A stretch of DNA of 64,000 nt, taken from positions 751,883 to 815,882 of the forward strand of contig NZ_FNZN01000001.1 in assembly GCF_900109345.1 (NCBI RefSeq), read 5' to 3'. How positions within the stretch are numbered: position 1 is the stretch's first letter; each line of letters opens with the position of its first letter. A program made the position numbers and the translations under genes. The stretch is from Maribacter orientalis (GTDB lineage Bacteria; Bacteroidota; Bacteroidia; Flavobacteriales; Flavobacteriaceae). Under the pieces are notes generated by a model. That model ran no database searches. It was given only the letters and a program-made list of their open reading frames with translations, and was not told the DNA's origin. This document shows, piece after piece, positions 2,783 through 38,555 of this stretch.

Positions 2783-4096
2783 ATGAATACTAACTATAAA
2801 AAAAACAGTCTATCACTAATAGGAGCTGTAGCATTGGGTACCGGTGTAATGATTGGTGCCGGAATTTTTGCCTTATTGGGTCAGGTCGCTGAACTGTCAG
2901 GTAATTTATTTCCACTTGCCTTCATTGCTGGAGCCATAATCTCAGGATTTAGTGCTTATGGTTATATCAAAATGTCAAATGCTTTTCCATCTTCTGGTGG
3001 AATAGCGATGTATTTGGTCAAAGCCTACGGAAAAGGAACTGTTGCAGCATCAGGTGCGCTTTTAATGGCGTTTTCAATGATAATCAATGAGAGTCTGGTC
3101 GCCCGTACTTTTGGTTCTTATACCTTACAGCTCTTTAATGTGGGCAACAACAGTGTTTGGGTACCCATACTGGGGGTAATCCTAATTGTGGGTGCCTTTC
3201 TAATTAATATTTCTGGCAATGAAATTATTGGAAAGTCATCATTAATTATGGCAATCATTAAGATTGGAGGCATCGCTATTTTTGCAATAGGAGCGCTCTG
3301 GGCTGCTGGCTTTTCTTTCCAAGATGCTATTTCATTAAGTAATTCAACGAATTATGCAACAACAGATTATTTAGGTGCATTGGCTTTATCTATTTTGGCG
3401 TATAAAGGATTTACAACTATTACAAACAGCGGTGGAGAAATTGTAAACCCTAAAAAGAATGTGGGACGGGCAATTATAATTTCTCTTTCAATATGTACCG
3501 TAATATATCTATTAGTGGCATTTGCAGTTTCCTCTAATTTAACTATTTCAGAAATTGTATCAGCCAAGGATTATTCATTGGCCGAGGCTTCGAAGCCAGC
3601 TTTTGGTCAATACGGATTATGGTTCACCGTTGGTATAGCAATAGTAGCTACCATATCGGGAATTATAGCCAGCATCTTTGCCGTATCAAGAATGACAGCA
3701 ATGTTAACAAAAATGAAGCTCATTCCTCATAAACATTTCGGAATGCCCGGTACTATTCAAAAGCACATGTTGGTTTATGTTGCTGTTATTGCAATTGTAC
3801 TAACTATATTTTTTGATTTAAGTCGTATAGCATCTTTGGGTGCCATATTTTATTTAGTAATGGACATCGGCATCCAATGGGGTGTACTGCGAAACTTAAG
3901 AAAAGAAGTTAAAGCTAATTCAGCCATAATTATAACGGCTATTTTGTTAGATGTCATAGTCTTAAGTGCCTTTTTATGGATTAAAGCGAGCACTGACAAA
4001 ACGGTCATAATTGTTGCACTAGTAGCAATAACGCTTATAATTTTAGGAGAAAGATGGTTTTTAACAGCCAACAAAAACAACAAGGATTCAGCATAA
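2783..4096 (+). CDS. APC-superfamily amino acid permease
   Basis: Integral inner-membrane transporter of 437 residues with about 12 hydrophobic segments. The N-terminal GTGVMIGAGIFALLG is the glycine-rich first helix of the APC family (amino acid/polyamine/organocation), which binds the substrate carboxylate. FPSSGG in helix 3 is also family-typical. The start codon lies 2 bases after the oxidase stop, so the two genes are surely co-transcribed and probably translationally coupled. The substrate cannot be read from the sequence. Its place in a copper cassette suggests uptake or export of a metal-binding amino acid, but that is inference. Confidence 0.85.
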   Translation: MNTNYKKNSLSLIGAVALGTGVMIGAGIFALLGQVAELSGNLFPLAFIAGAIISGFSAYGYIKMSNAFPSSGGIAMYLVKAYGKGTVAASGALLMAFSMIINESLVARTFGSYTLQLFNVGNNSVWVPILGVILIVGAFLINISGNEIIGKSSLIMAIIKIGGIAIFAIGALWAAGFSFQDAISLSNSTNYATTDYLGALALSILAYKGFTTITNSGGEIVNPKKNVGRAIIISLSICTVIYLLVAFAVSSNLTISEIVSAKDYSLAEASKPAFGQYGLWFTVGIAIVATISGIIASIFAVSRMTAMLTKMKLIPHKHFGMPGTIQKHMLVYVAVIAIVLTIFFDLSRIASLGAIFYLVMDIGIQWGVLRNLRKEVKANSAIIITAILLDVIVLSAFLWIKASTDKTVIIVALVAITLIILGERWFLTANKNNKDSA

Positions 4097-27715: not shown

Positions 27716-28264
27716 AACTAGAATAGATTGTTACAATTTTTAATTACTCCATCTTGATATGTAATAGAATCTTTAAGAAAACAAGCACTTATTTGTTAAA
27801 GTGGAATTTTATCAGATGCTGTTAAGTTTTGTATATCAATATTTTATAAATATAGACTATAGTACAGCAATGTGAACTTTTAATTAAAACTCTGCACTAT
27901 GTAACATTTAAAAAGGTTGAAATACACTAAGCCTATTTTTGAATATTGAAAAATATTAGCGCTTGAATTAAAGAAACATACCAACACAATTAATCATAGT
28001 GAATATCCGCATATCAAATTCTTTAAGCTTAATATTACTCTACTACTAAATTTTAATTTATATTAAATTATGACCTTTTAATAGATTCATTTTAAAATAC
28101 GAGATTTTGATTATGTATCATTCCATAGAATTTAAGTGTGCCCATTAGAGTATATAACCAAAGATTCAAGTAGTATTTTATTCAATCCCTTGGCACTATG
28201 TATTATGAAACACTTTGCCTCTACCTTATATAAAAATGAAATTAAAGTTGTGTTAATCGAAAAG
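27716..28264. other. Divergent intergenic region between fabD and a TetR gene
   Basis: About 550 AT-rich bases. Short frames on both strands near 28130-28350 are shadows and lack coding character. The promoter and operator of the TetR gene begin at 28265. Confidence 0.45.
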
Positions 28265-28291
28265 AATGAACATTCATTTTCTGTATCTTTG
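28265..28291 (+). promoter_or_regulatory. TetR promoter with palindromic operator
   Basis: AATGAA-CA-TTCATT (28265-28278) is a perfect 6-base inverted repeat with a 2-base centre. TATCTTTG (28284-28291), a perfect -7 box, follows after 5 bases, so a repressor bound here would block the promoter. Transcription would start near 28298 and the TetR ATG is at 28311. The same operator sequence, with one central base different, lies before the gene at 34817. Confidence 0.75.
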
Positions 28292-28310
28292 TGTTTTAAT
28301 TTTATTAAAT

Positions 28311-28895
28311 ATGGCAGCACTTCAAAAAAGTATAGACAAGCGTAACGCATTAATACAAGCGACTATTGAATTAGTGAATAACGATGGGTTTCATGCTACC
28401 CCCATGAGTAAGATTGCTAAAATGGCCAGTGTTTCACCAGCAACCATTTATCTATATTTTGACAATAAACAGGATTTAGTAAACAAAACTTATATCGAAG
28501 TTAAAGCATGTTATACCGCATATGCTTTTGAAACATATGATGAAACCATGCCTGTAGAATATGGTTTTAAAGTGATTTGGAAACGCATAGCAGAATTTAA
28601 AATAAAAGAAAGTGCAAATGCCCTGTTTTTAGCACAATGTGATAATACTCCCATGATTGATGAAGCAAGTAGACAAGAAGGTATCAAGCATTTACAACCC
28701 CTTCTCGACCTATGGGCTCGTGGAAAAAAAGAGGGCATTATTAAACCGCTATCAGATTACTTATTGTATGCCTACGCTATAAATCCGTTATCATTTTTAA
28801 TGATGGCACAAAATCGTGGGTCGATTCAATTAACTCAACTAGAACTAGACCAAGCTTATGAGGCAGCTTGGAGTAGTATTAAAGTCTGTAAATAA
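28311..28895 (+). CDS. TetR-family transcriptional regulator
   Basis: A 194-residue repressor. The N-terminal helix-turn-helix is RNALIQATIELV, then FHATPMSKIAKMASVSPATIYLYFDNKQDLV; the C-terminal part is a helical ligand-binding domain with Cys in KACYTAY and LAQCDN that could react with electrophiles. A frame is open 15 codons upstream, but that leader would overlap the promoter, so the ATG at 28311 is chosen. The gene is first in an operon with an NAD(P)-binding protein and a nitroreductase, a layout like NemR/NemA, and probably represses itself through the palindrome at 28265. Confidence 0.85.
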   Translation: MAALQKSIDKRNALIQATIELVNNDGFHATPMSKIAKMASVSPATIYLYFDNKQDLVNKTYIEVKACYTAYAFETYDETMPVEYGFKVIWKRIAEFKIKESANALFLAQCDNTPMIDEASRQEGIKHLQPLLDLWARGKKEGIIKPLSDYLLYAYAINPLSFLMMAQNRGSIQLTQLELDQAYEAAWSSIKVCK

Positions 28896-28896
28896 C

Positions 28897-29562
28897 ATGA
28901 AGAAGACAGCTATTATATTAGGAGCTTCGGGTTTAACCGGTGGTCTTTTACTTCAAAAATTAATTGATGACAATAGGTACAGTACTATTAAATTATTTTC
29001 ACGAACCCGCATTGAAGGCTTACCAAATAAAGTTATTCAATTCATTGGTAATTTACTAGAGCTAGAACAGTTTAGTGCAGATTTTATCGCAGATGAAGTG
29101 TATTGTTGCATTGGTACTACCGCAAAAAAAACACCAGACAAAAAGTTGTATAAGAAGATAGATTACGGGATACCCGTTGCCGCTGCCAAGCTTGCAAAGG
29201 AAAATGACATACCAACCTTCTTAGTTATTTCTGCCATGGGAGCAAATAAAACGAGTAGTGTGTTTTATAATAGAACAAAAGGTGAAATGGAACAAGGTGT
29301 GCTTCAGCAAGGCATTAAGAATACTTCAATATTAAGACCCGCATTAATTGGTGGTGAACGTAACGAACGTAGAGTGTTGGAAAAAATAGGAATTGTGGTA
29401 TTCAAAATTATACAGCCACTTTTCATTGGCCCATTAAAAAAGTATAGAATTATAAATGCAGAAAGTATTGCACAAGCCATGCTTAATCTTGCCAATAACA
29501 CAAGTAATACACAAGTAGTTATTACTTCAAGCGATATCATACAATTAGCTAAAAACAACTAA
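28897..29562 (+). CDS. NAD(P)-binding Rossmann protein (TIP30/NmrA-like)
   Basis: A 221-residue atypical short-chain dehydrogenase relative. GASGLTGGLLL at the N-terminus binds NAD(P)H, CCIGTTAKKT and SAMGANKTSSVFYNRTKGEME (in part) match the TIP30/HTATIP2 group, where YxxxK-type residues remain. It probably reduces or senses a small substrate or nucleotide. The ATG at 28897 lies one base after the TetR stop; an earlier in-frame start would overlap TetR and lacks support. It is the middle gene of the operon. Confidence 0.8.
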   Translation: MKKTAIILGASGLTGGLLLQKLIDDNRYSTIKLFSRTRIEGLPNKVIQFIGNLLELEQFSADFIADEVYCCIGTTAKKTPDKKLYKKIDYGIPVAAAKLAKENDIPTFLVISAMGANKTSSVFYNRTKGEMEQGVLQQGIKNTSILRPALIGGERNERRVLEKIGIVVFKIIQPLFIGPLKKYRIINAESIAQAMLNLANNTSNTQVVITSSDIIQLAKNN

Positions 29563-29578
29563 AACAAGAGTTATTTAA

Positions 29579-30211
29579 ATGGAATTATTAGATAAATTAA
29601 ATTGGAGATACGCCGCAAAGGCAATGAACGGTAAAAAAGTGGCTGAAGATAAAATAGAACGTATTTTAGAAGCAGCACGTTTAGCTCCTACATCAAGTGG
29701 GTTGCAACCTTTTGAGATTGTCGTCGTAAAGAATCAAGAAATTAAGGAACAAATTAGACCAGTCGCATGGAATCAATCTGTAATTACAGATTGCTCTCAC
29801 CTACTTGTTTTTGCAGCTTGGGATACCTACACGGCAGAAAGAATAAATTACATGTTCGACTTAACAAACGAGATTCGTGGATTTAAAAACGAAGGGTGGG
29901 AAAATTACCGTCAAATGCTATTAGGTTCTTATCCACAAAAAAGTGCTGAAGAAAATTTTAACCATGCTGCAAAACAAGCTTATATAGCTTTTTCACATTC
30001 TATTATTGCAGCGGCATACGAAGGTGTAGATGCTACTCCGTTAGAAGGTTTTGAACCAAATGCAGTTGATAAAATTCTTGGACTTCGTGAGAAAGGTTTG
30101 CGAAGTGCTGTATTATTGCCAATTGGTTATAGAAATGAAAGTGAAGATTGGTTGGTAAACTTAAAGAAAGTGAGAAAACCAATGAAAGAGTTGGTTACTA
30201 TTCTTGAATAA
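29579..30211 (+). CDS. NAD(P)H-dependent nitroreductase (NfsB-like)
   Basis: A 210-residue FMN flavoprotein of the nitroreductase family, which reduces nitroaromatics, quinones and other electrophiles. RYAAKAMNGKKV at the start, ARLAPTSSGLQPFEI (FMN phosphate site), EGVDATPLEGFEP and LPIGYRNESEDW near the end are family blocks. It is the last gene of the TetR operon, followed by a terminator, and supports the idea that the operon detoxifies electrophiles. A decayed relative lies at 34249. Confidence 0.9.
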   Translation: MELLDKLNWRYAAKAMNGKKVAEDKIERILEAARLAPTSSGLQPFEIVVVKNQEIKEQIRPVAWNQSVITDCSHLLVFAAWDTYTAERINYMFDLTNEIRGFKNEGWENYRQMLLGSYPQKSAEENFNHAAKQAYIAFSHSIIAAAYEGVDATPLEGFEPNAVDKILGLREKGLRSAVLLPIGYRNESEDWLVNLKKVRKPMKELVTILE

Positions 30212-30270
30212 GCTTTTGAAAATGAAAAGGACAAAGAAGTTAAGCAATTTTGAATTTAAGTTCTTAAGAA

Positions 30271-30303
30271 AAGGGTTGTCACAAATAGACAACCTTTTTT
30301 TGT
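30271..30303 (+). terminator. Terminator of the TetR operon
   Basis: AAGGGTTGTC and GACAACCTTTTTT form a stem of about 9 pairs with a 7-base loop and a long T-run, about 60 bases after the nitroreductase stop. Confidence 0.85.
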
Positions 30304-30412
30304 TACCATTAGTTAGCAATGGGTTGCGTATTTATAGCTACTAAGGCATCGTTCATTGACACTCAAATCGCTATAAGTTTTAATAATTCTATACTGAACT
30401 TTAGAAAACCAA

Positions 30413-30420
30413 TATCTTCG
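30413..30420 (+). promoter_or_regulatory. -7-like promoter box of the EamA transporter gene
   Basis: TATCTTCG differs from the consensus TAnnTTTG in one position and ends 8 bases before the ATG at 30429, so the transcript would have almost no leader. No clear -33 box. Confidence 0.45.
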
Positions 30421-30428
30421 CGCGCATT

Positions 30429-31328
30429 ATGTGGATGTACCTTGGACTTTTAGCGGCACTATTTTTAGGCTTACACAACCTATGTAAGAAACACGCAGTA
30501 CAGGGTAATGAAGTCTTTCCTGTTTTACTAGGTACTATCTCTTCAGGATTTTTATTGCTCCTCCCCTTTTATATTGGCTCTCAATTTTTTAAAGAGTACA
30601 TGATTGAAATTCAGTTTTATATTACTGATATTCCCTTAAAAACACATGGTTTTATTGCGGTTAAGTCCGCTATTATGGCTGCTTCATGGGTATTGGCATA
30701 CCAGGCATTAAAACATCTCCCCATTACTATAGTTACTCCTATACGTTCTGCTGGTCCGTTTTTCACCTTTATTGGTGCAATAACTATATATAACGAAAAG
30801 CCGAATACATATCAATGGATAGGCTTTTTTCTTATCATTTTTTCAGTTCTGCTTTATTCGAGAATTGGAAAAAAAGAAGGAATCCACTTCAAGAACAACA
30901 AATGGATATTTGCAATTATTGGCGCAACTTTTTTAGGTGCTTCCAGCGGTTTGTATGATAAATTTCTGATACAAAGTTTAGCTTTAAATCCGCAAACATT
31001 ACAATTCTGGTTTTGCTTTTATACGGTCTTAATTTTGCTCATTATTTTAACAATTACCTGGTTTCCGAATGCAGACAAAAGAAAAGCCTTTAAATGGCGG
31101 TGGTCTATACCCTTGGTTGGTATCCTATTACAAATAGCCGATTATTTTTATTTTAAGGCATTACAAGACCCTGATGCATTGATTATGTTGCTATCTGCCA
31201 TTAAACGCAGTCAGATATTGATAGCAGTAGTGATAGGTGGGGTTTTATTTAAAGAACAAAATAAACGAAAGAAGTTAGTGCCACTAGCGGGAATTATGAC
31301 AGGTGTTTTTCTAATTCTATATTCCTAG
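30429..31328 (+). CDS. EamA/DMT-superfamily transporter
   Basis: A 299-residue inner-membrane protein of about 10 helices built from two EamA repeats (roughly 1-140 and 150-299); PIRSAGPFFTFIGAI and FKEQNKRKKLVPLAGI mark the ends of the repeats. Members export amino acids, metabolites or toxic compounds; the substrate is unknown. It is a single-gene unit with its own -7-like box. Confidence 0.82.
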   Translation: MWMYLGLLAALFLGLHNLCKKHAVQGNEVFPVLLGTISSGFLLLLPFYIGSQFFKEYMIEIQFYITDIPLKTHGFIAVKSAIMAASWVLAYQALKHLPITIVTPIRSAGPFFTFIGAITIYNEKPNTYQWIGFFLIIFSVLLYSRIGKKEGIHFKNNKWIFAIIGATFLGASSGLYDKFLIQSLALNPQTLQFWFCFYTVLILLIILTITWFPNADKRKAFKWRWSIPLVGILLQIADYFYFKALQDPDALIMLLSAIKRSQILIAVVIGGVLFKEQNKRKKLVPLAGIMTGVFLILYS

Positions 31329-31457
31329 AAAACGAACAAGTTTGCGAGTGGCAATTATAAAAATGGAGGTTATACTCGATTTTCCCCATTCGATGGCTGT
31401 ATATTTGTTCAATTATTAACCTTTACTTGGGTTAAGTAATTTCATTTGTTAATAGTT

Positions 31458-32069
31458 ATGTCGTTTAAAAAACTGAATCCGTATTTGTTAGAAATGTTAG
31501 AGGGCTTTTCAATTGAAGAACCTACACCTTTTCAAAAAAGCAGTATTCCCATTATAAAAAGTGGTTCAAATGTATATTGTACCGCTCCAAAAGAAAGCGG
31601 AAAAACGACTACTCTAATCCTTACCACACTTCAAAAATTAAAATGTGAAGCAGTTGGTAATGCACCCAGAGCTGTCGTAGTTGTTGAGAATAAAGAAAAG
31701 GTATTAGAACTTTACGATGAATTTCTGCGGTATACGAAGTATTCTTCCCTTCGAGTGTATGCAAGCTATAAAGAGTTACATATCGATATTCAAAAATCGG
31801 AAATATTTGAAGGTATAGATATATTAATAACAACCCCTACTACCCTACACAAATTGTTTCTTTTAAATGGTGTAAGTACGTCGCAATTAAAAATTTGCAG
31901 TATTGATGATGGAGATTTTCTGGTTCAAAAATCAGAATACACCGCTATGATTACAGTAGCTCAGAGTATAATGAAGTGTCAGTATGTATTGTATTCTGAA
32001 AAATTGAATCCGAAGTTAAAACGCTTCGAAGATTTCTTCATGGAACGTGCAAACCATGTGAAAATTTAG
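31458..32069 (+). CDS. Degenerate single-domain DEAD-box-like protein
   Basis: A 203-residue protein equal to only the first RecA-like domain of a DEAD-box helicase. A Q-motif-like FSIEEPTPFQKSSIPI and a Walker-A-like APKESGKTT remain, and TTPTTLHKLF stands for motif Ib, but motif II reads IDDGD instead of DEAD and the helicase C domain is missing. There is no internal stop, and the codon pattern is clean, so it looks like a working protein with an altered role, perhaps RNA binding or regulation of a true helicase. The ATG at 31458 is preferred over a TTG at 31446. Confidence 0.7.
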   Translation: MSFKKLNPYLLEMLEGFSIEEPTPFQKSSIPIIKSGSNVYCTAPKESGKTTTLILTTLQKLKCEAVGNAPRAVVVVENKEKVLELYDEFLRYTKYSSLRVYASYKELHIDIQKSEIFEGIDILITTPTTLHKLFLLNGVSTSQLKICSIDDGDFLVQKSEYTAMITVAQSIMKCQYVLYSEKLNPKLKRFEDFFMERANHVKI

Positions 32070-32145
32070 CACGAGAATAGACTTCTTTTTTTGTGAGAAT
32101 ACAAAAAAATGAGATATGTTTAAATTTGATGATGTTCGATAAAAC

Positions 32146-32268
32146 CTATTCTTCAGTTGAATTAGAATTTGATATTTCTTCTTTCATATCCATGCCTTTA
32201 ACACATGACACAACCACTAAAAGTAAAATGCTTGAGATAAGATTAATTCTGCTAGTTATAGATTTCAT
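32146..32268 (-). CDS. Possible small lipoprotein
   Basis: On the minus strand an ATG at 32268 opens 40 codons: a basic start, a hydrophobic segment and a lipobox VVSC (Cys22), followed by an acidic tail ending STEE. This is a complete lipoprotein signal in a very short gene. It is too short to test by coding statistics and no -7 box is clear upstream, so it could be the remnant of a longer gene. Confidence 0.45.
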   Translation of the reverse strand: MKSITSRINLISSILLLVVVSCVKGMDMKEEISNSNSTEE

Positions 32269-32451
32269 ACTAGGTACTAACGTTATTGGTCAATGACTTA
32301 TTATATCGACCAACGATTATCGTTGAATTACAATTATTTTAACAATGGTGTGTTTAGTGTATGAAATTTTAAAAAAAATAGAAGCATAAGATAACTTCGA
32401 CAATTTTGAGATATACGGTAAATAAATTAAGTGAAACTATAGTTTTTTTAC

Positions 32452-33225
32452 TTAGACCTTTGTTTGTTTATTATAACTAGGGTCAGTTAGTTTTTTAATA
32501 GTGCTAGTATAGCCTATATCAAAAATGGTATCAATATATCTCATGTCGAATGTAGCAAATGAGCTTAATTCTTCTGGTGAAATGACTAAGTCACATTCTA
32601 CAAATTTTGCTATAGAATCTGAAACAGACTTTATTTTATAAGCCCTATCTACAACATTATACGAATGTTTTAAGTCTTTAAGTTTAATGTTCTTTAGTGG
32701 ATTAACATAACTACCAATGATTTTATCGCAATGAGATAGCAAGGGTTCAACAGGAAAATTGTTAAGCACACCACCATCCACATAATAAGAACCATTGATA
32801 GCGATTGGCGAAAAGACGCCAGGAAAAGTGGCAGAGGCCAGTATTGGCTTTATTAATTCTCCTGCTTGAAAAATAACGAGATCACCTTTTATTATATCTG
32901 TTGCGGTAATAAATAGAGATTTTGGTAATGATTCAAAAGTATCTTTTGGGAAGAACTTTTTAAACTCATCGTAAAATTTTTCAGTATCCAGAAATCCTGG
33001 TTTTTTACGAGCAAATCTATAAGTATGAAATATAGGAATAGCTTTGAAAAACTCTAAAATAACAGGCCATTTAATTCCTCCAGCATACAAAGCACCTACG
33101 ATTGCCCCGGCACTTGTACCTGATATATGTGTGGGTGATATACCATATTCCTCTAAAGCTTTAATAACTCCTATATGAGCAACACCCCTAATGCCTCCAC
33201 CTGATAATACTAAACCTATGTTCAT
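32452..33225 (-). CDS. Patatin-like phospholipase (RssA type)
   Basis: A 257-residue lipid acyl hydrolase. SGGGIRGVAHIGV is the oxyanion loop, the nucleophile Ser is in GTSAG (near 43) and the catalytic Asp is in DGG (near 151), so the Ser-Asp dyad is complete. There is no signal peptide, so it is cytosolic and may act on inner-membrane phospholipids. It resembles RssA of enterobacteria. It stands alone. Confidence 0.9.
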   Translation of the reverse strand: MNIGLVLSGGGIRGVAHIGVIKALEEYGISPTHISGTSAGAIVGALYAGGIKWPVILEFFKAIPIFHTYRFARKKPGFLDTEKFYDEFKKFFPKDTFESLPKSLFITATDIIKGDLVIFQAGELIKPILASATFPGVFSPIAINGSYYVDGGVLNNFPVEPLLSHCDKIIGSYVNPLKNIKLKDLKHSYNVVDRAYKIKSVSDSIAKFVECDLVISPEELSSFATFDMRYIDTIFDIGYTSTIKKLTDPSYNKQTKV

Positions 33226-33414
33226 TTTAGATGCTTTTTATTGTATAACTGATAAAGGAAATAATCACTTTTTGATGACTATTATAAATTAGAATAATCC
33301 ACTATCTATTTCTGCATTCGCTATACCAAAACTATAGTAGTATTTTTATTATTTGTGAATTGAACAAATAAATTAATCTGTTATCGGTTTAAACCAATTG
33401 TAACTACTATAAAA

Positions 33415-34029
33415 TTATAAGTCAAAGGAAATTTTAATACCCTCTATAATCATACCAGTACCTATAATAGCAATGATTAAACCCATTATCTTACCTATGA
33501 CAGAGATAACATTATAACCCACTATTCTAACTATATGGTCACTTAACCTAAAAGTGAAATAGGTTATTAAACTCATAAGTCCAAAGATAGCTATTACCAA
33601 AAATATTTGAATGGGCTCAACTTTGGATACAAAATTCATTGAAGTAACAATCGTACCAGGACCAGCTAAAATTGGTATTGCTAGAGGAGATACCGCTATG
33701 TTTTCATCAATGTGTACATCATTTATACTTTTAACACTAGATTGTTTTGATTGAAGCATATCAAAACCGATATAAAAAATTAAGATACCGCCAGTAATTT
33801 TAAATGCGGGAATACTAATGTTGAAAAGTTCAAAAATAAACTTACCTAAAAGCACAAAAACGGTTACAATAATAAATGCAATAATATTGGCTCTTTTATT
33901 TATATCTAGTTTTGTTTTTTTATCTGCACCTTGCGTTAAGGACAAAAAAAGTGTCATGTTCGATATGGGGTTTGTAATAGCAAAAAACCCAGTGAATACG
34001 GTAATTGAAAAAGTAATTAAGTTATCCAT
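33415..34029 (-). CDS. MarC-family integral membrane protein
   Basis: A 204-residue protein of six helices in the MarC/UPF0056 family. FFAITNPISNMTLFLSL in helix 1 and AIPILAGPGTIVTSM in the middle are the family's conserved blocks. The function of MarC proteins is not settled, though transport of a small compound is likely. Single-gene unit, no signal for regulation seen. Confidence 0.88.
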   Translation of the reverse strand: MDNLITFSITVFTGFFAITNPISNMTLFLSLTQGADKKTKLDINKRANIIAFIIVTVFVLLGKFIFELFNISIPAFKITGGILIFYIGFDMLQSKQSSVKSINDVHIDENIAVSPLAIPILAGPGTIVTSMNFVSKVEPIQIFLVIAIFGLMSLITYFTFRLSDHIVRIVGYNVISVIGKIMGLIIAIIGTGMIIEGIKISFDL

Positions 34030-34248
34030 TTGTCCTGAAAAAAATTATCTAAATAGTATAGGAAAACTTTCCCCTCTTATTTTTTAAAAATGCAAAACTA
34101 CTTGAATTATCTGACGTGGAATAGTGCTATATGATAAAGCCTTAATAAAATTAATGTCTTTAAAATTTTGCTTGTGAAGAGTAAGTATATACTAAAAGAA
34201 TATACAGCAATATAAATCGATACATTCTAATCTTTCCGTTACTCTAAA
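34030..34248. other. Intergenic region between the MarC gene and the nitroreductase remnant
   Basis: About 220 bases that must contain the MarC promoter on the minus strand. Nothing else seen. Confidence 0.35.
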
Positions 34249-34500
34249 TTATTTCCAAGTAACGATATCCTCAAAATCTCTTCTAGACTTCTCATGTGCA
34301 GGAGCTGCTTTTCTATAACCAGAAGCGACTATAAATGATAACCCACATTTATCAGTATCTACGGCAAATTTTTCTTTTAATAATGCTTCAGCTTTTTCTT
34401 GATGAAATCCTTCAATCGGGCAACTATCAAATTCAGTTATAAATGCTTAAAATCTTTCATCAAAGTCATAATATAAGCCGCCGTTAAAAGTAGAATATGC
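34249..34500 (-). pseudogene. Remnant of a nitroreductase (C-terminal part)
   Basis: The minus strand ends with a clear nitroreductase C-terminus: FDSCPIEGF, then EKFAVDTDKCGLSFIVASGYRK and a TAA at 34251-34249 (quoted in pieces). Just before FDSCPIEGF the frame meets a TAA, and the upstream sequence shows only scattered pieces in other frames (TAAYI). The FMN-binding N-terminal half is missing, so this is a dead fragment. It belongs to a different subgroup (SCPIEGF) from the intact nitroreductase at 29579. Confidence 0.8.
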
Positions 34501-34667
34501 ATAAACTACTTTACTAAACATTTAGTGCCCGTACACATTTCTATTAGTAATTGAGGTAAAATGGTAACTGAGGAAAAGGAAAGGTTAAAGCATAATAATA
34601 TTTAATGCGCTTTATGTTGTTTTATATTTTAAAGTAGTTTTTTCAATTAATTAAACCTATGTTAAAA

Positions 34668-34700
34668 AATGAATATTCATTCTTTATTGTGATACCTTTG
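34668..34700 (+). promoter_or_regulatory. Promoter with AATGAATATTCATT operator before the CurA-like gene
   Basis: AATGAATATTCATT (34668-34681) is a perfect 14-base palindrome. TACCTTTG (34693-34700) fits the -7 consensus TAnnTTTG. The palindrome lies where the -33 region would be. It is the same as the operator of the TetR gene at 28265 except for one central base, so that TetR protein probably controls this gene as well. The leader would be about 110 bases long. Confidence 0.7.
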
Positions 34701-34816: not shown

Positions 34817-35815
34817 ATGAGTAAGTCAATAAATTTAAAACAACGTCCAATCGGTACACCTACCCTAGCAGATTTCGAATTTAAAGAGCAGGAAAATAAC
34901 GTAACATTATCTGAAGGTGAAATTCTATTGGAAACTGAATATATTTCTGTAGATCCTTATTTACGTGGCCGAATGAGTGAAGCTAAATCTTATGTTGAAC
35001 CTTTTGAAGTAGGAAAACCTGTTAGTTCGGGTATTATAGCAAAAGTAGTTGATTCTAAAAATGAAAATTTTAAAAAAGGAGATTTCGTAGCAGGATTACT
35101 ACCCTGGAAAACTGAACAAATTTCGAATGGTGAAGGTTTACAGAAAGTTGATAAAGACAAAGCTCCTTTGAGTGCCTATTTAGGTATTTTAGGTATGACA
35201 GGCTTAACCGCTTTTTTAGGTCTTCATGAAATAGGGAAGCCAAAAAAAGGAGAAACTTTAGTTGTTTCCGGTGCTGCAGGCGCCGTTGGTAGTGTTGTTG
35301 GTCAGATAGGTAAAATACATGGTCTTAATGTTATAGGCATTGCTGGATCTGATGAGAAAGTGAATATGCTGACATCTGAACTTGGTTTTGACCACGGTAT
35401 CAATTACAAAACAACCAAAGATATGAAGTCTGCTATTCAAAAAGCAGCTCCCAATGGTGTAGATATCTATTTTGATAATGTTAGCGGTCCAATTTCTGAT
35501 GCTGTATTATTCAGTATTAATAGATTCGCAAGAATGGTTATTTGTGGTGCAATATCGGTTTATAATAACACCGAATTACCAAAAGGTCTAAGCGTACAGC
35601 CTTTCTTAGTAAAGAATAGTGCCTTAATGCAAGGGTTTATTGTTTCAAATTATGCGGATAAGTTCCCAGAAGCAATGAAGCATTTAGCTACTTGGTTGGG
35701 TGAAGGTAAATTGACTTACAAAGAAACAATAGTAGAAGGTTTCGAAAATACTCCCCAAGCATTTTTAGATATGATGGCAGGAAAAAATAATGGAAAAATG
35801 ATAGTTAAGGCTTAA
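34817..35815 (+). CDS. NADP-dependent oxidoreductase (CurA/prostaglandin-reductase type)
   Basis: A 332-residue zinc-free medium-chain reductase that reduces C=C bonds of enones and enals using NADPH. ISVDPYLRGRMS near residue 44 and SGAAGAVGSVVGQIGK near 150 (NADP site) are typical of the YncB/CurA/leukotriene B4 dehydrogenase group; no zinc ligands are present. It is followed after 36 bases by a DJ-1/PfpI gene. With its palindromic operator it fits an electrophile response. Confidence 0.9.
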   Translation: MSKSINLKQRPIGTPTLADFEFKEQENNVTLSEGEILLETEYISVDPYLRGRMSEAKSYVEPFEVGKPVSSGIIAKVVDSKNENFKKGDFVAGLLPWKTEQISNGEGLQKVDKDKAPLSAYLGILGMTGLTAFLGLHEIGKPKKGETLVVSGAAGAVGSVVGQIGKIHGLNVIGIAGSDEKVNMLTSELGFDHGINYKTTKDMKSAIQKAAPNGVDIYFDNVSGPISDAVLFSINRFARMVICGAISVYNNTELPKGLSVQPFLVKNSALMQGFIVSNYADKFPEAMKHLATWLGEGKLTYKETIVEGFENTPQAFLDMMAGKNNGKMIVKA

Positions 35816-35851: not shown

Positions 35852-36529
35852 ATGAAAATATTATTTGTATTGACCTCTCATGATACATTGGGAGAAACAG
35901 GAAAGAAAACAGGATTTTGGATTGAAGAGTTCGCTGCTCCGTATTACACTTTATTAGACAAAGGTGCAACTATTACAGTGGCTACACCAAAAGGAGGTCA
36001 AGCACCCATTGACCCTAGTAGTGATACCGAAGATGCGCAAACAAAAGATACGAAACGTTATAAAGACGATAAAGCAGCTCAAGATGTTATTGCAAATACA
36101 AAAGTCTTAACAAACATCAATGCTTCAGATTTTGATGCAGTGTTCTACCCTGGTGGACATGGACCGTTGTGGGATTTAGCGAACGATGCTACTTCTATTA
36201 AATTGATTGAAACATTTAACGCTCAAGAGAAACCTGTAGCATTTGTATGTCACGCTCCAGCAGCACTAAAAGGTGTTAAGGGAAAAGATGGTAATCCGTT
36301 AGTGAAAGGAAAGAAAGTAACAGGCTTTACCAATACGGAAGAAGCTGCTGTTCAATTAACCAACGTAGTTCCGTTTTTAGTAGAAGATATGTTGAAAGAA
36401 AATGGTGGAATCTACTCTAAGAAAGAAGATTGGGCTGCTTATGCAATTCAAGATGGTAATTTAATTACTGGTCAAAACCCAGCATCATCAGAACTGGTCG
36501 CTGAAAAGTTATTAGCTGCTTTGAAGTAA
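35852..36529 (+). CDS. DJ-1/PfpI-family protein (Hsp31-like glyoxalase III type)
   Basis: A 225-residue protein with the nucleophile elbow FVCHAPAAL (Cys near 132) and the acidic partner near the N-terminus (KTGFWIEEFAAPY), as in Hsp31-like proteins that remove methylglyoxal or repair glycated residues. FYPGGHGPLWDL is a family block. It shares an operon with the CurA-like reductase, so both probably remove reactive carbonyls. A terminator follows 22 bases after the stop. Confidence 0.88.
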   Translation: MKILFVLTSHDTLGETGKKTGFWIEEFAAPYYTLLDKGATITVATPKGGQAPIDPSSDTEDAQTKDTKRYKDDKAAQDVIANTKVLTNINASDFDAVFYPGGHGPLWDLANDATSIKLIETFNAQEKPVAFVCHAPAALKGVKGKDGNPLVKGKKVTGFTNTEEAAVQLTNVVPFLVEDMLKENGGIYSKKEDWAAYAIQDGNLITGQNPASSELVAEKLLAALK

Positions 36530-36598: not shown

Positions 36599-37141
36599 CT
36601 AATTATATAAAATGTCGTAAGTATTGAATACTAAACCGCCGTCATAAGATTGCGTATCGGTTAGATTCAGTAAATAGCCTTCTTTTGAATTACCGAATAA
36701 ACGAATACCATCACCCAGTAGTAAAGGATTCAATTTTACTTTTAGCACATCTATGAGTTTATGCTCTAAAAGCCAACTAGCAAAAATACCTCCGCCGCAT
36801 AAATAGATATCGGTTTTAGAAGTTTCTTTTAGTTCTCGAATTGTTTCGGTTTCGTAATCAGCAAGTACATGAACTTTTTCATTTTTATTTTCAAAGCTCA
36901 AGGACTTAGAAAATATATAATGATTCATATGAGGATACGAAGGTTGCCCTGGTTTTAATCCGAAGTCATACCCAAACTCATACGTTTTTCGACCCATGAT
37001 AACGGTTTCAAATTCCTTTAAATCGGCCAAGTATTGTGAAATGCCGTTACCTTCTCCCACAAATTCGCTAATATCAGAATCGAGTCCGCATATAAAGCCA
37101 TCAATAGAAATAGCTACATAATACACTACTTTCATCATCAT
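36599..37141 (-). CDS. DHFR-like reductase (RibD C-terminal family)
   Basis: A 180-residue protein with the dihydrofolate-reductase-like fold of the RibD C-terminal family: YVAISIDGFICG at the start, VIMGRKTYEFG near 50 and DIYLCGGGIFASWL near 115 (NADPH site). Most such proteins are of unknown substrate and not folate enzymes. The protein begins with three Met codons (37141, 37138, 37135) and the exact start is open. It is the last gene of the minus-strand operon that begins at 39729. Confidence 0.85.
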   Translation of the reverse strand: MMMKVVYYVAISIDGFICGLDSDISEFVGEGNGISQYLADLKEFETVIMGRKTYEFGYDFGLKPGQPSYPHMNHYIFSKSLSFENKNEKVHVLADYETETIRELKETSKTDIYLCGGGIFASWLLEHKLIDVLKVKLNPLLLGDGIRLFGNSKEGYLLNLTDTQSYDGGLVFNTYDILYN

Positions 37142-37163
37142 ATCCGTTTTAGATATCTTAAAG

Positions 37164-38555
37164 TTATGATTTCGGAATTATATTTTGATTCACTTTGAAA
37201 AAGTTGGTTGGATCATATTGATGTTTTATGGATGCCAATCGTGTATAATTCTGTTTATAACTGGCTTGAACCCTTTCTTGGCCTTCATCCATCATAAAAT
37301 TAGAATACGCCCCTCCAGCAGAATATGGATGTAAAGCTTCATAATATCCTTTACACCACTTTGTAATTTTATCAGCATTCTTTGGGTCGGGATCAACACC
37401 GATATAAACGCCACAATATTCTGCGTCACGGTATGCCCATGGTGTGTCAGTTGCTCCTACTCTACTTGCTGCACCCGTAATTGGATATAAATGCATCTGA
37501 GATAAAGGGGTCGGTATCGCTGAACCGAATTTTAAATGCTGTGCCCGTATATCTGCGTTTAGTGAATTAAAAAAATCGGCACGCCAGTACCATTGCATAC
37601 CAGTAGGTAATAAGCCATCGAACATGGTCTGAATAGCAGGATAAGGCATTTCCCCAACATGAGCGAATATTGGTTTTTTCGCTAAAATTGGGACGAAAGC
37701 TTCTTCTGCCTTCGTCATATCACCAACATAACACCATACAATACCACAGAACTTTTTGTTGTGTAAATGTTCTGGAAATGGTGATTCTGGGATAATCATT
37801 GTTGCGATAAATCCATTAATATCATCAGAGGCTGTTCGGATAAATCCATCGAACCATTCCATAATTTCCTCTACTTGTTCAATGGGCCATAATGTTGGTC
37901 CACCATACACTGTTTTAAGTTTATGTGCTTGAAATGTAAATTCGGTAACTACACCAAAGTTTCCTCCTCCACCACGAATTGCCCAAAACAAATCTGGATT
38001 CTTATTTTGATTAGCTGAAACAATAGATCCATCTGCCAAAATCATTTCGGCTCCCAAGAGATTATCAATGGTGAGTCCGTATTTGCGAGCTAGATACCCA
38101 ACACCGCCACCAAGAGTCAATCCGCCAACACCAGTACTTGAAACCATCCCTGAAGGTATGGCAAGTCCATACTCATGGGTAGCTGTATCCACTTCATTCC
38201 AAATACATCCGCCCCCAACTTTTACAGTGTTATTCTCAGTATTTACCGAAATATACTTAAGCCCAGATAAATCAATGACCAATCCGCCATCGCATAATCC
38301 TAGTCCGCCACCATTATGACCTCCTCCTCTAATTGCAACAAGAAAATTATTATTCCTACCAAAGTCAACGGCTACTTTAACATCATTTACATCGGAACAC
38401 ATAGCAATAGCGCCAGGATGTTTATCAATCATAGCGTTATATACTTTTCGTATTTCATCATACGAAGTGTCGTTAGGTGTAATGAGAGTACCTTTTAATT
38501 GTTTTCGTAGGCTTTCTATAAGCTTTTCTGTGATAGGTTGTTGAAGGTTTTTCAT
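37164..38555 (-). CDS. FAD-linked oxidase of the berberine-bridge type
   Basis: A 463-residue flavoprotein oxidase. The FAD-binding PCMH domain has RGGGHNGGG (the His that usually carries the flavin covalently), SGMVSSTGVGGLTLGGGVGYL and AIRGGGGNFGVVT; the C-terminal BBE motif is FMMDEGQERVQASYKQN, then YDPTNFFKVNQNI. The Cys for a second covalent link to FAD is not obvious. Such enzymes oxidise sugars, alcohols or alkaloids. It sits between a truncated haemoglobin and a DHFR-like reductase in one operon, so an O2-using reaction is likely. Confidence 0.88.
   Translation of the reverse strand: MKNLQQPITEKLIESLRKQLKGTLITPNDTSYDEIRKVYNAMIDKHPGAIAMCSDVNDVKVAVDFGRNNNFLVAIRGGGHNGGGLGLCDGGLVIDLSGLKYISVNTENNTVKVGGGCIWNEVDTATHEYGLAIPSGMVSSTGVGGLTLGGGVGYLARKYGLTIDNLLGAEMILADGSIVSANQNKNPDLFWAIRGGGGNFGVVTEFTFQAHKLKTVYGGPTLWPIEQVEEIMEWFDGFIRTASDDINGFIATMIIPESPFPEHLHNKKFCGIVWCYVGDMTKAEEAFVPILAKKPIFAHVGEMPYPAIQTMFDGLLPTGMQWYWRADFFNSLNADIRAQHLKFGSAIPTPLSQMHLYPITGAASRVGATDTPWAYRDAEYCGVYIGVDPDPKNADKITKWCKGYYEALHPYSAGGAYSNFMMDEGQERVQASYKQNYTRLASIKHQYDPTNFFKVNQNIIPKS

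Follow-up and report, generated by a model that had tools for sequence, protein, structure and literature searches.

A 64,000-nucleotide stretch of the Maribacter orientalis genome (contig NZ_FNZN01000001.1, positions 751,883 to 815,882 of the forward strand; hereafter the window) carries two near-identical palindromic operators that almost certainly join two transcription units in one regulon, and the protein that represses through these sites is very probably the TetR-family regulator encoded next to the first of them. In the model we propose, TetR (28311-28895) is an autorepressor that would bind as a dimer to the 16-base-pair (bp) pseudo-palindrome GAATGAAYRTTCATTT, which lies just upstream of a TAnnTTTG box, and RNA polymerase would hence be blocked. 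The same repressor would act on its own operon, which comprises tetR and the genes for an NmrA-like protein and a nitroreductase (ntr), and on a second promoter 6.4 kb away that serves curA and a DJ-1 gene. Both units would descend from an operon tetR-nmrA-ntr-curA-yqhD-DJ-1 that is still present in other Flavobacteriaceae, with curA and DJ-1 having moved out in Maribacter, where an inverted operator copy would have kept them under the same regulation. The signal would most likely be a reactive electrophile (i.e., a quinone, an enal or enone, an alpha-oxoaldehyde or a nitroaromatic) that binds near Cys110, at the end of helix 6, or reacts covalently with it, and so releases the repressor. Taken as a whole, this explanation (a TetR autorepressor, a two-promoter regulon, a split operon and an electrophile signal at Cys110) appears highly probable to us from the sequence comparisons that follow.

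The palindrome AATGAAYATTCATT occurs at 28265-28278 (AATGAACATTCATT) and at 34668-34681 (AATGAATATTCATT), and TAnnTTTG boxes follow 5 and 11 bp later. A preliminary description of this DNA had reported both copies, each next to such a -7 box, and its coordinates and letters proved exact. The box of the tetR promoter, TATCTTTG, is at 28284-28291 and that of the curA promoter, TACCTTTG, at 34693-34700, both on the plus strand. With its flanking bases, the first operator (O1; GAATGAACATTCATTT, 28264-28279, plus strand) lies 32 bp upstream of tetR, while the second (O2; GAATGAATATTCATTT as read on the minus strand, 34667-34682) is inverted relative to O1 and lies 135 bp upstream of curA. The opposite-strand reading of the second site, GAATGAATATTCATTTT, is identical to the first site, GAATGAACATTCATTTT, at 16 of 17 positions. 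In the window, which has a G+C content of 34.5%, AATGAAYRTTCATT was found twice against an expectation of 0.02, and none of 100 shuffles held two or more matches. For motif counts at the level of genomes the reversed motif served as the control. Exact matches to AATGAANNTTCATT are present at three places in the whole genome (none for the control), and the third copy, AATGAAGCTTCATT, is inside a coding frame of 438 amino acids that we take, from the suf cluster, to be sufD. When the motif was restricted to the 15-mer GAATGAAYRTTCATT, which has a pyrimidine-purine (YR) centre and one outer G, just O1 and O2 were found in the 4.16-Mb genome at up to one mismatch (one match for the control). A larger regulon in this strain was considered and set aside, since a YR centre together with the outer G leaves just two sites at that stringency.

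The association of the palindrome with tetR extends well beyond this genome. We picked 80 tetR loci, the best 80 of 223 relatives, by similarity of the TetR protein alone, and the palindrome is upstream of tetR in all of them (77 exact, three with one change, TCACT for TCATT). In nine of these loci a small DoxX-like gene separates the operator from tetR, and the operator still heads the operon at about position -415. The genus was sampled with 36 Maribacter genomes, the window's genome included, and the nearest named genome, that of Maribacter arcticus, encodes a TetR that is 93% identical. Orthologs of tetR (at least 74% identity) are present in 25 of the 36 genomes; the 15-mer occurs in all 25 and in one of the 11 genomes without the ortholog (G028). 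Its 48 places in the genus comprise 25 ahead of tetR and 20 ahead of curA, together with two in G014, within a paralogous tetR-curA cluster, and the one in G028, against none for the reversed control. The preliminary description would have been refuted by a motif that is not enriched upstream of redox genes, and it passes this test.

A sample of 299 Flavobacteriaceae genomes gave a similar picture. With tetR called at E <=1e-40 (52-100% identity), the gene is found in 55 genomes, the 15-mer in 57 (13 for the reversed control) and both in 45 (Fisher p = 2e-32, uncorrected for phylogeny). In 44 of these 45 genomes the site precedes tetR by 31-74 bp, and in the other by 403 bp. All ten tetR genomes that lack the exact 15-mer have a variant of it upstream. 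Nine of these variants differ from the 14-mer at one base, two of the nine being some 440 bp away from tetR, and the tenth has a longer spacer. Among the 12 genomes with the motif and no tetR ortholog, the site adjoins another TetR-like gene in three (G203, G218 and G152); in the other nine no TetR-like frame was found within the 6-7.5 kb taken around the site, and these look like chance matches because the site is inside a reading frame in eight of the nine. Two tetR genomes have a second site, within a reading frame in G320 and at 2,920,700 in G275, that showed no tie to the regulon. The earlier proposal of one shared TetR regulon is supported by the specificity of the site, by the co-occurrence of tetR and site, and by the presence of curA and DJ-1 inside the tetR operon elsewhere.

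Some sites stand apart from the orthologous regulon. The site in G028 (GAATGAACGTTCATTC, positions 3424-3439 of locus L223) is intergenic and fully symmetric and lies 255 bp ahead of an S15-peptidase gene; the only TetR noted in its vicinity is a distant one encoded about 4 kb downstream. At three further loci (L216, L224 and L226, from G046, G203 and G218, respectively) a distant TetR, about 30% identical and with Leu or Met in place of Cys110, adjoins genes for a short-chain dehydrogenase and a small DoxX-like protein, and the operator there, GAATGAAYRTTCATTC, is fully symmetric. The orthologous regulon, unlike these three loci, keeps the outer G on one side only, as seen in 100 of 100 promoters.

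The curA promoter allows the association to be examined at a second position. We compared 27 Maribacter curA orthologs (at least 77% identity), leaving out the weaker matches L183-L185 and the 65% paralog of G014. In 20 of the 27 the site begins 52-159 bp upstream of curA, inverted relative to most tetR sites, and in two (G020 and G033) curA is within a tetR-ntr-curA operon and has no site of its own. The remaining five (G002, G007, G009, G016 and G022) belong to genomes that have no tetR ortholog, the similarity search having given nothing or a weak hit confined to the DNA-binding region; the same motif is nowhere in these genomes, and no DJ-1 gene was found in the 1.5 kb beside curA. For these counts the Fisher p is 2.6e-4, or 1.2e-5 when the two genes within the operon were counted as controlled. 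In a CurA tree, the states with a site, in the operon and without a site each form one side of a branch.

To describe the operon in the 80 loci we took the same-strand run of genes after the operator, with gaps below 200 bp and frames of at least 80 amino acids. This run contains tetR in all 80, the nitroreductase gene in 75, a gene for a YqhD-like, Fe-type alcohol dehydrogenase in 72, the NmrA-like gene in 57, DJ-1 in 52 and curA in 42, with the DoxX-like gene ahead of tetR in the nine loci mentioned above. The complete order tetR-nmrA-ntr-curA-yqhD-DJ-1 is seen, for example, in L055, L085 and L119, while curA and DJ-1 form a separate unit with an inverted operator in 20 Maribacter genomes. 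No yqhD-like gene was found at E <=1e-60 in the window's genome or in M. arcticus (G005); 21 genomes of the genus have one, and tetR is present in all 21. The CurA tree and the spread of the joined operon over genera suggest that the two units derive from one ancestral operon that split under retained common control, and it is this direction of change that we infer. The Maribacter lineage appears to record the splitting of an operon into two transcription units with co-regulation kept, and the joined, split and regulator-less states are all found among living relatives. Additional operator copies are present directly after tetR in L218 (G275) and L222 (G014), where they precede the nitroreductase gene or a ferritin-Ohr-CurA run. 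These copies are perhaps internal operators of the kind that a splitting operon would need.

The two promoters share a further element. A TGTTAA sequence on the plus strand, at 28251-28256 in the tetR promoter and 34660-34665 in the curA promoter, lies 33 nucleotides (nt) ahead of the -7 box in each. It occurs together with the box in 65 tetR and 17 curA promoters, with a spacing of 33-34 nt in 59 and 16 of them, respectively, and is absent from the 30 nt searched in 13 of 80 tetR and three of 20 curA promoters. TGTTAA lies too far upstream to be the usual -33 element and is possibly a contact for an activator or an upstream contact for RNA polymerase. The distance from the end of the palindrome to the TAnnTTTG box is 5-9 bp in 76 of 80 tetR promoters (16 bp in one, with no box match in three) and 11-12 bp in all 20 curA promoters. 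The operator is therefore shifted by 2-7 bp between the two promoters while the TGTTAA spacing is mostly constant, which indicates that the operator slid relative to the -7 box. The bases flanking the operator are A/C in 20 of 20 curA sites versus G/T in 78 of 80 tetR sites, in line with its inverted orientation.

The gene products named in the preliminary description (TetR, NmrA-like protein, nitroreductase, CurA-like reductase and DJ-1) were borne out by profile searches, with the NmrA-like protein falling below curated Pfam cut-offs. All five genes are on the plus strand. The TetR-family protein has 194 amino acids, and its Pfam domains TetR_N and TetR_HI_0893_C, the latter being the ligand domain, both score above gathering thresholds. 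The gene for the NmrA-like NAD(P)-binding protein (28897-29562; NAD_binding_10 below the gathering score) begins 1 bp past the tetR stop codon and is followed by the gene for the nitroreductase (29579-30211), which profile matches assign to the NfsB type. In the second unit, the CurA-like protein (34817-35815) is an NADPH-dependent alkenal/enone reductase of the CurA/leukotriene-B4-dehydrogenase type, with a match to ADH_N_2 that is above the Pfam cut-off and an NCBIfam match that is below its own. The DJ-1/PfpI protein (35852-36529), which resembles glyoxalase III and deglycases, has a VCHAP motif with Cys133.

Past curA-DJ-1, on the opposite strand (36599-38555), are genes for a RibD_C-domain reductase and a berberine-bridge-type flavin adenine dinucleotide (FAD) oxidase. 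In several Maribacter genomes one or both of these have relatives next to curA-DJ-1. On the other side, about 220 bp from the curA operator, the minus strand holds a remnant of a second nitroreductase gene (34249-34446). Its 65-amino-acid piece is 77-78% identical to intact sequence in five loci (L058, L079, L083, L102 and L108); the matching frame of 224 amino acids in L058 is a Pfam nitroreductase, and M. arcticus holds a broken copy at the equivalent place.

What might the repressor sense? The preliminary description had pointed to a Cys-containing TetR, and of the three cysteines one is conserved throughout. Among distinct matched TetR stretches, all 109 with at least 50% identity retain Cys110, and the four below 50% identity have Leu or Met in its place. 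Cys193 recurs in most sequences, though not in every one, and conservation does not extend to Cys67. The AlphaFold 2 (AF2) model of TetR, with a predicted local distance difference test (pLDDT) score of 93.8, places Cys110 at the end of helix 6 and matches TetR structures over nearly its full length. Among the fold matches listed, the closest is 3pas (Maqu_1417), with a template-modelling (TM) score of 0.91 and a Z-score of 24.1, followed by 4me9 (BCE_2991 of Bacillus cereus), with a TM score of 0.85 and a Z-score of 23.5 (TM scores for the best chain, query-normalised). TetR is 22-25% identical to these two proteins, and to our knowledge no function has been published for either of them.

The enzymes are consistent with the electrophile defence that the preliminary description had likened to the NemR response. 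The nitroreductase, the enone reductase, the YqhD-like protein and DJ-1 speak for such a role, as does the paralogous cluster of G014 (L222). That cluster encodes a 58%-identical TetR and a 65%-identical CurA under the same operator, together with an Ohr peroxidase, an old-yellow-enzyme reductase and a ferritin-like protein, and a YqhD-like gene is adjacent. The part of the comparison that did not stand is strict kinship with NemR, to which we return below. From these gene contents we consider it reasonably likely that the signal is an electrophile or an aldehyde; covalent sensing by Cys110 is a more tentative proposal, with which the conservation of this residue would fit.

Several results weigh against our interpretation and have to be considered together with the alternatives that they would favour. 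The scan of the window at two mismatches was not enriched (10 matches found, 15.5 expected), as might be expected if the pair of palindromes were a chance product of AT-rich DNA, and when no centre was fixed, the 14-mer matched the genome at 81 places with one mismatch or none, compared with 36 for its reversed form (beyond O1 and O2, the exact third copy is the one of these that was inspected). The signal is therefore confined to near-perfect copies. For those copies the shuffles and the conservation across genus and family rule chance out, and we give that explanation practically no weight. It is also very unlikely that the two promoters share the motif as a general element, or as the site of another regulator, with tetR nearby incidentally. 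The promoters do resemble each other further, with the palindrome embedded in A/T tracts and TGTTAA placed exactly 33 nt ahead of the -7 box, and G028, a Maribacter genome, has the site without a tetR ortholog. However, the palindrome tracks tetR across genomes, the 15-mer occurs nowhere else in its own genome at up to one mismatch, and curA has no palindrome in the group without tetR. Moreover, both the orientation of the palindrome and its spacing from the -7 box change between the two promoters, whereas the spacing of TGTTAA is mostly constant. Repression by TetR at both promoters, which we infer instead, has to accommodate two further points. The difference in the gap between operator and box (5-9 versus 11-12 bp) means that the geometry of repression may differ between the tetR and curA promoters, and the five curA genomes without a site form a single group in the CurA tree, so that the loss of regulator and site counts as one event and not five.

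A stronger competitor accepts the same TetR at both promoters and replaces the signal with a non-covalent ligand, such as a fatty acid or acyl-CoA, an aromatic metabolite or a drug. The reductases would then clear the ligand or its products, and the conserved Cys110 may be structural. The solved TetR relatives listed include Bacillus FadR, B. halodurans FadR and RamR, with the B. cereus protein 4me9 among the best fold matches, and RamR and FadR bind drugs or acyl-CoA non-covalently. We regard this alternative as possible, roughly a one-in-three matter. It fits poorly with operons that hold reductases and DJ-1 and not genes for beta-oxidation or efflux, and with a Cys110 that never varies among the closer homologs and is Leu or Met in the distant TetRs, three of which are beside the same operator core.

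The notion that a repressor of this family controls its own operon through a palindrome has precedents in Bacillus. The TetR fold of the Maribacter protein is shared with Bm3R1 (FatR) and FadR, and the targets of FadR are beta-oxidation genes. The Bm3R1 operator would read CGGAATGAACGTTCATTCCG, and the half-site pattern AATGA-N4-TCATT of the Maribacter operator would equal the core of the B. subtilis FadR and B. megaterium Bm3R1 operators, a match that would favour the non-covalent alternative; the letters of these Bacillus operators were not found in the papers searched, which included portions of PMC3814354 and PMC6449355. The Maribacter operator differs at one outer base from the putative core of these fatty-acid regulators, GAATGAAYRTTCATTC. 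According to passages of PMC3814354, fatty acids displace FatR from the 18-bp palindrome through which it represses its own operon, and its target is a P450. No fatty-acid degradation or P450 genes were found in the operons of the 80 loci or among the genes of the window.

A second point of comparison is the enzyme set. The YqhD-like protein of the operon best matches NCBIfam PRK15138, which is presumably YqhD, with 488 bits against a cut-off of 645. In E. coli, the NADPH aldehyde reductase YqhD is under the control of YqhC, an aldehyde-responsive activator of the AraC type, in the YqhC-YqhD/YqhE system (as described in part of PMC5297802). The regulator in the Maribacter-type system is instead a TetR.

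Thiol and electrophile sensing has been described in detail for Proteobacteria and Firmicutes. The kind of system proposed here is known, and no description of this Flavobacteriaceae instance was found among the matches listed from open-licence literature, though one may have been published elsewhere. For experiments at the bench the system offers an operator, a regulator, a set of targets and one candidate residue for the sensor, all specific enough to be addressed directly. One of the closest counterparts is NemR of E. coli, where the gene order nemR-nemA-gloA is seen. According to sections of PMC7464077 and PMC5297802, nemA and gloA are repressed by NemR, a TetR-type protein that responds via cysteines to quinones, glyoxals, N-ethylmaleimide and hypochlorous acid, and glyoxals are detoxified by YqhD and by Hsp31, a DJ-1 protein. 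Like NemR, the Maribacter TetR heads a redox-enzyme operon, but the enzymes differ: the NemR operon encodes a flavin reductase and a glyoxalase (NemA and GloA), whereas the Maribacter-type enzymes are the NfsB-type nitroreductase, CurA, the YqhD-like protein and DJ-1. The sensor cysteines of NemR are Cys106, Cys116 and Cys21, whereas the Maribacter TetR has one fully conserved Cys. The NemR structure 4yze was not among the fold matches listed, which is uninformative either way. NemR and the Maribacter TetR align over residues 8-56 only, the DNA-binding part, so that no equivalence of Cys110 to a NemR cysteine can be claimed, and their ligand domains belong to different families (TetR_C_13 and TetR_HI_0893_C). 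The different ligand domain and the partial alignment rule out a NemR ortholog and make the Maribacter TetR an analogue of NemR. It may be, although we put this forward tentatively, that the Flavobacteriaceae regulon is an independently arisen, family-wide counterpart of NemR in Bacteroidota, with another ligand domain, the single invariant Cys110 as a covalent electrophile switch, and an operon for enone, aldehyde and nitro reduction that was split in Maribacter and held together as one regulon through an inverted operator.

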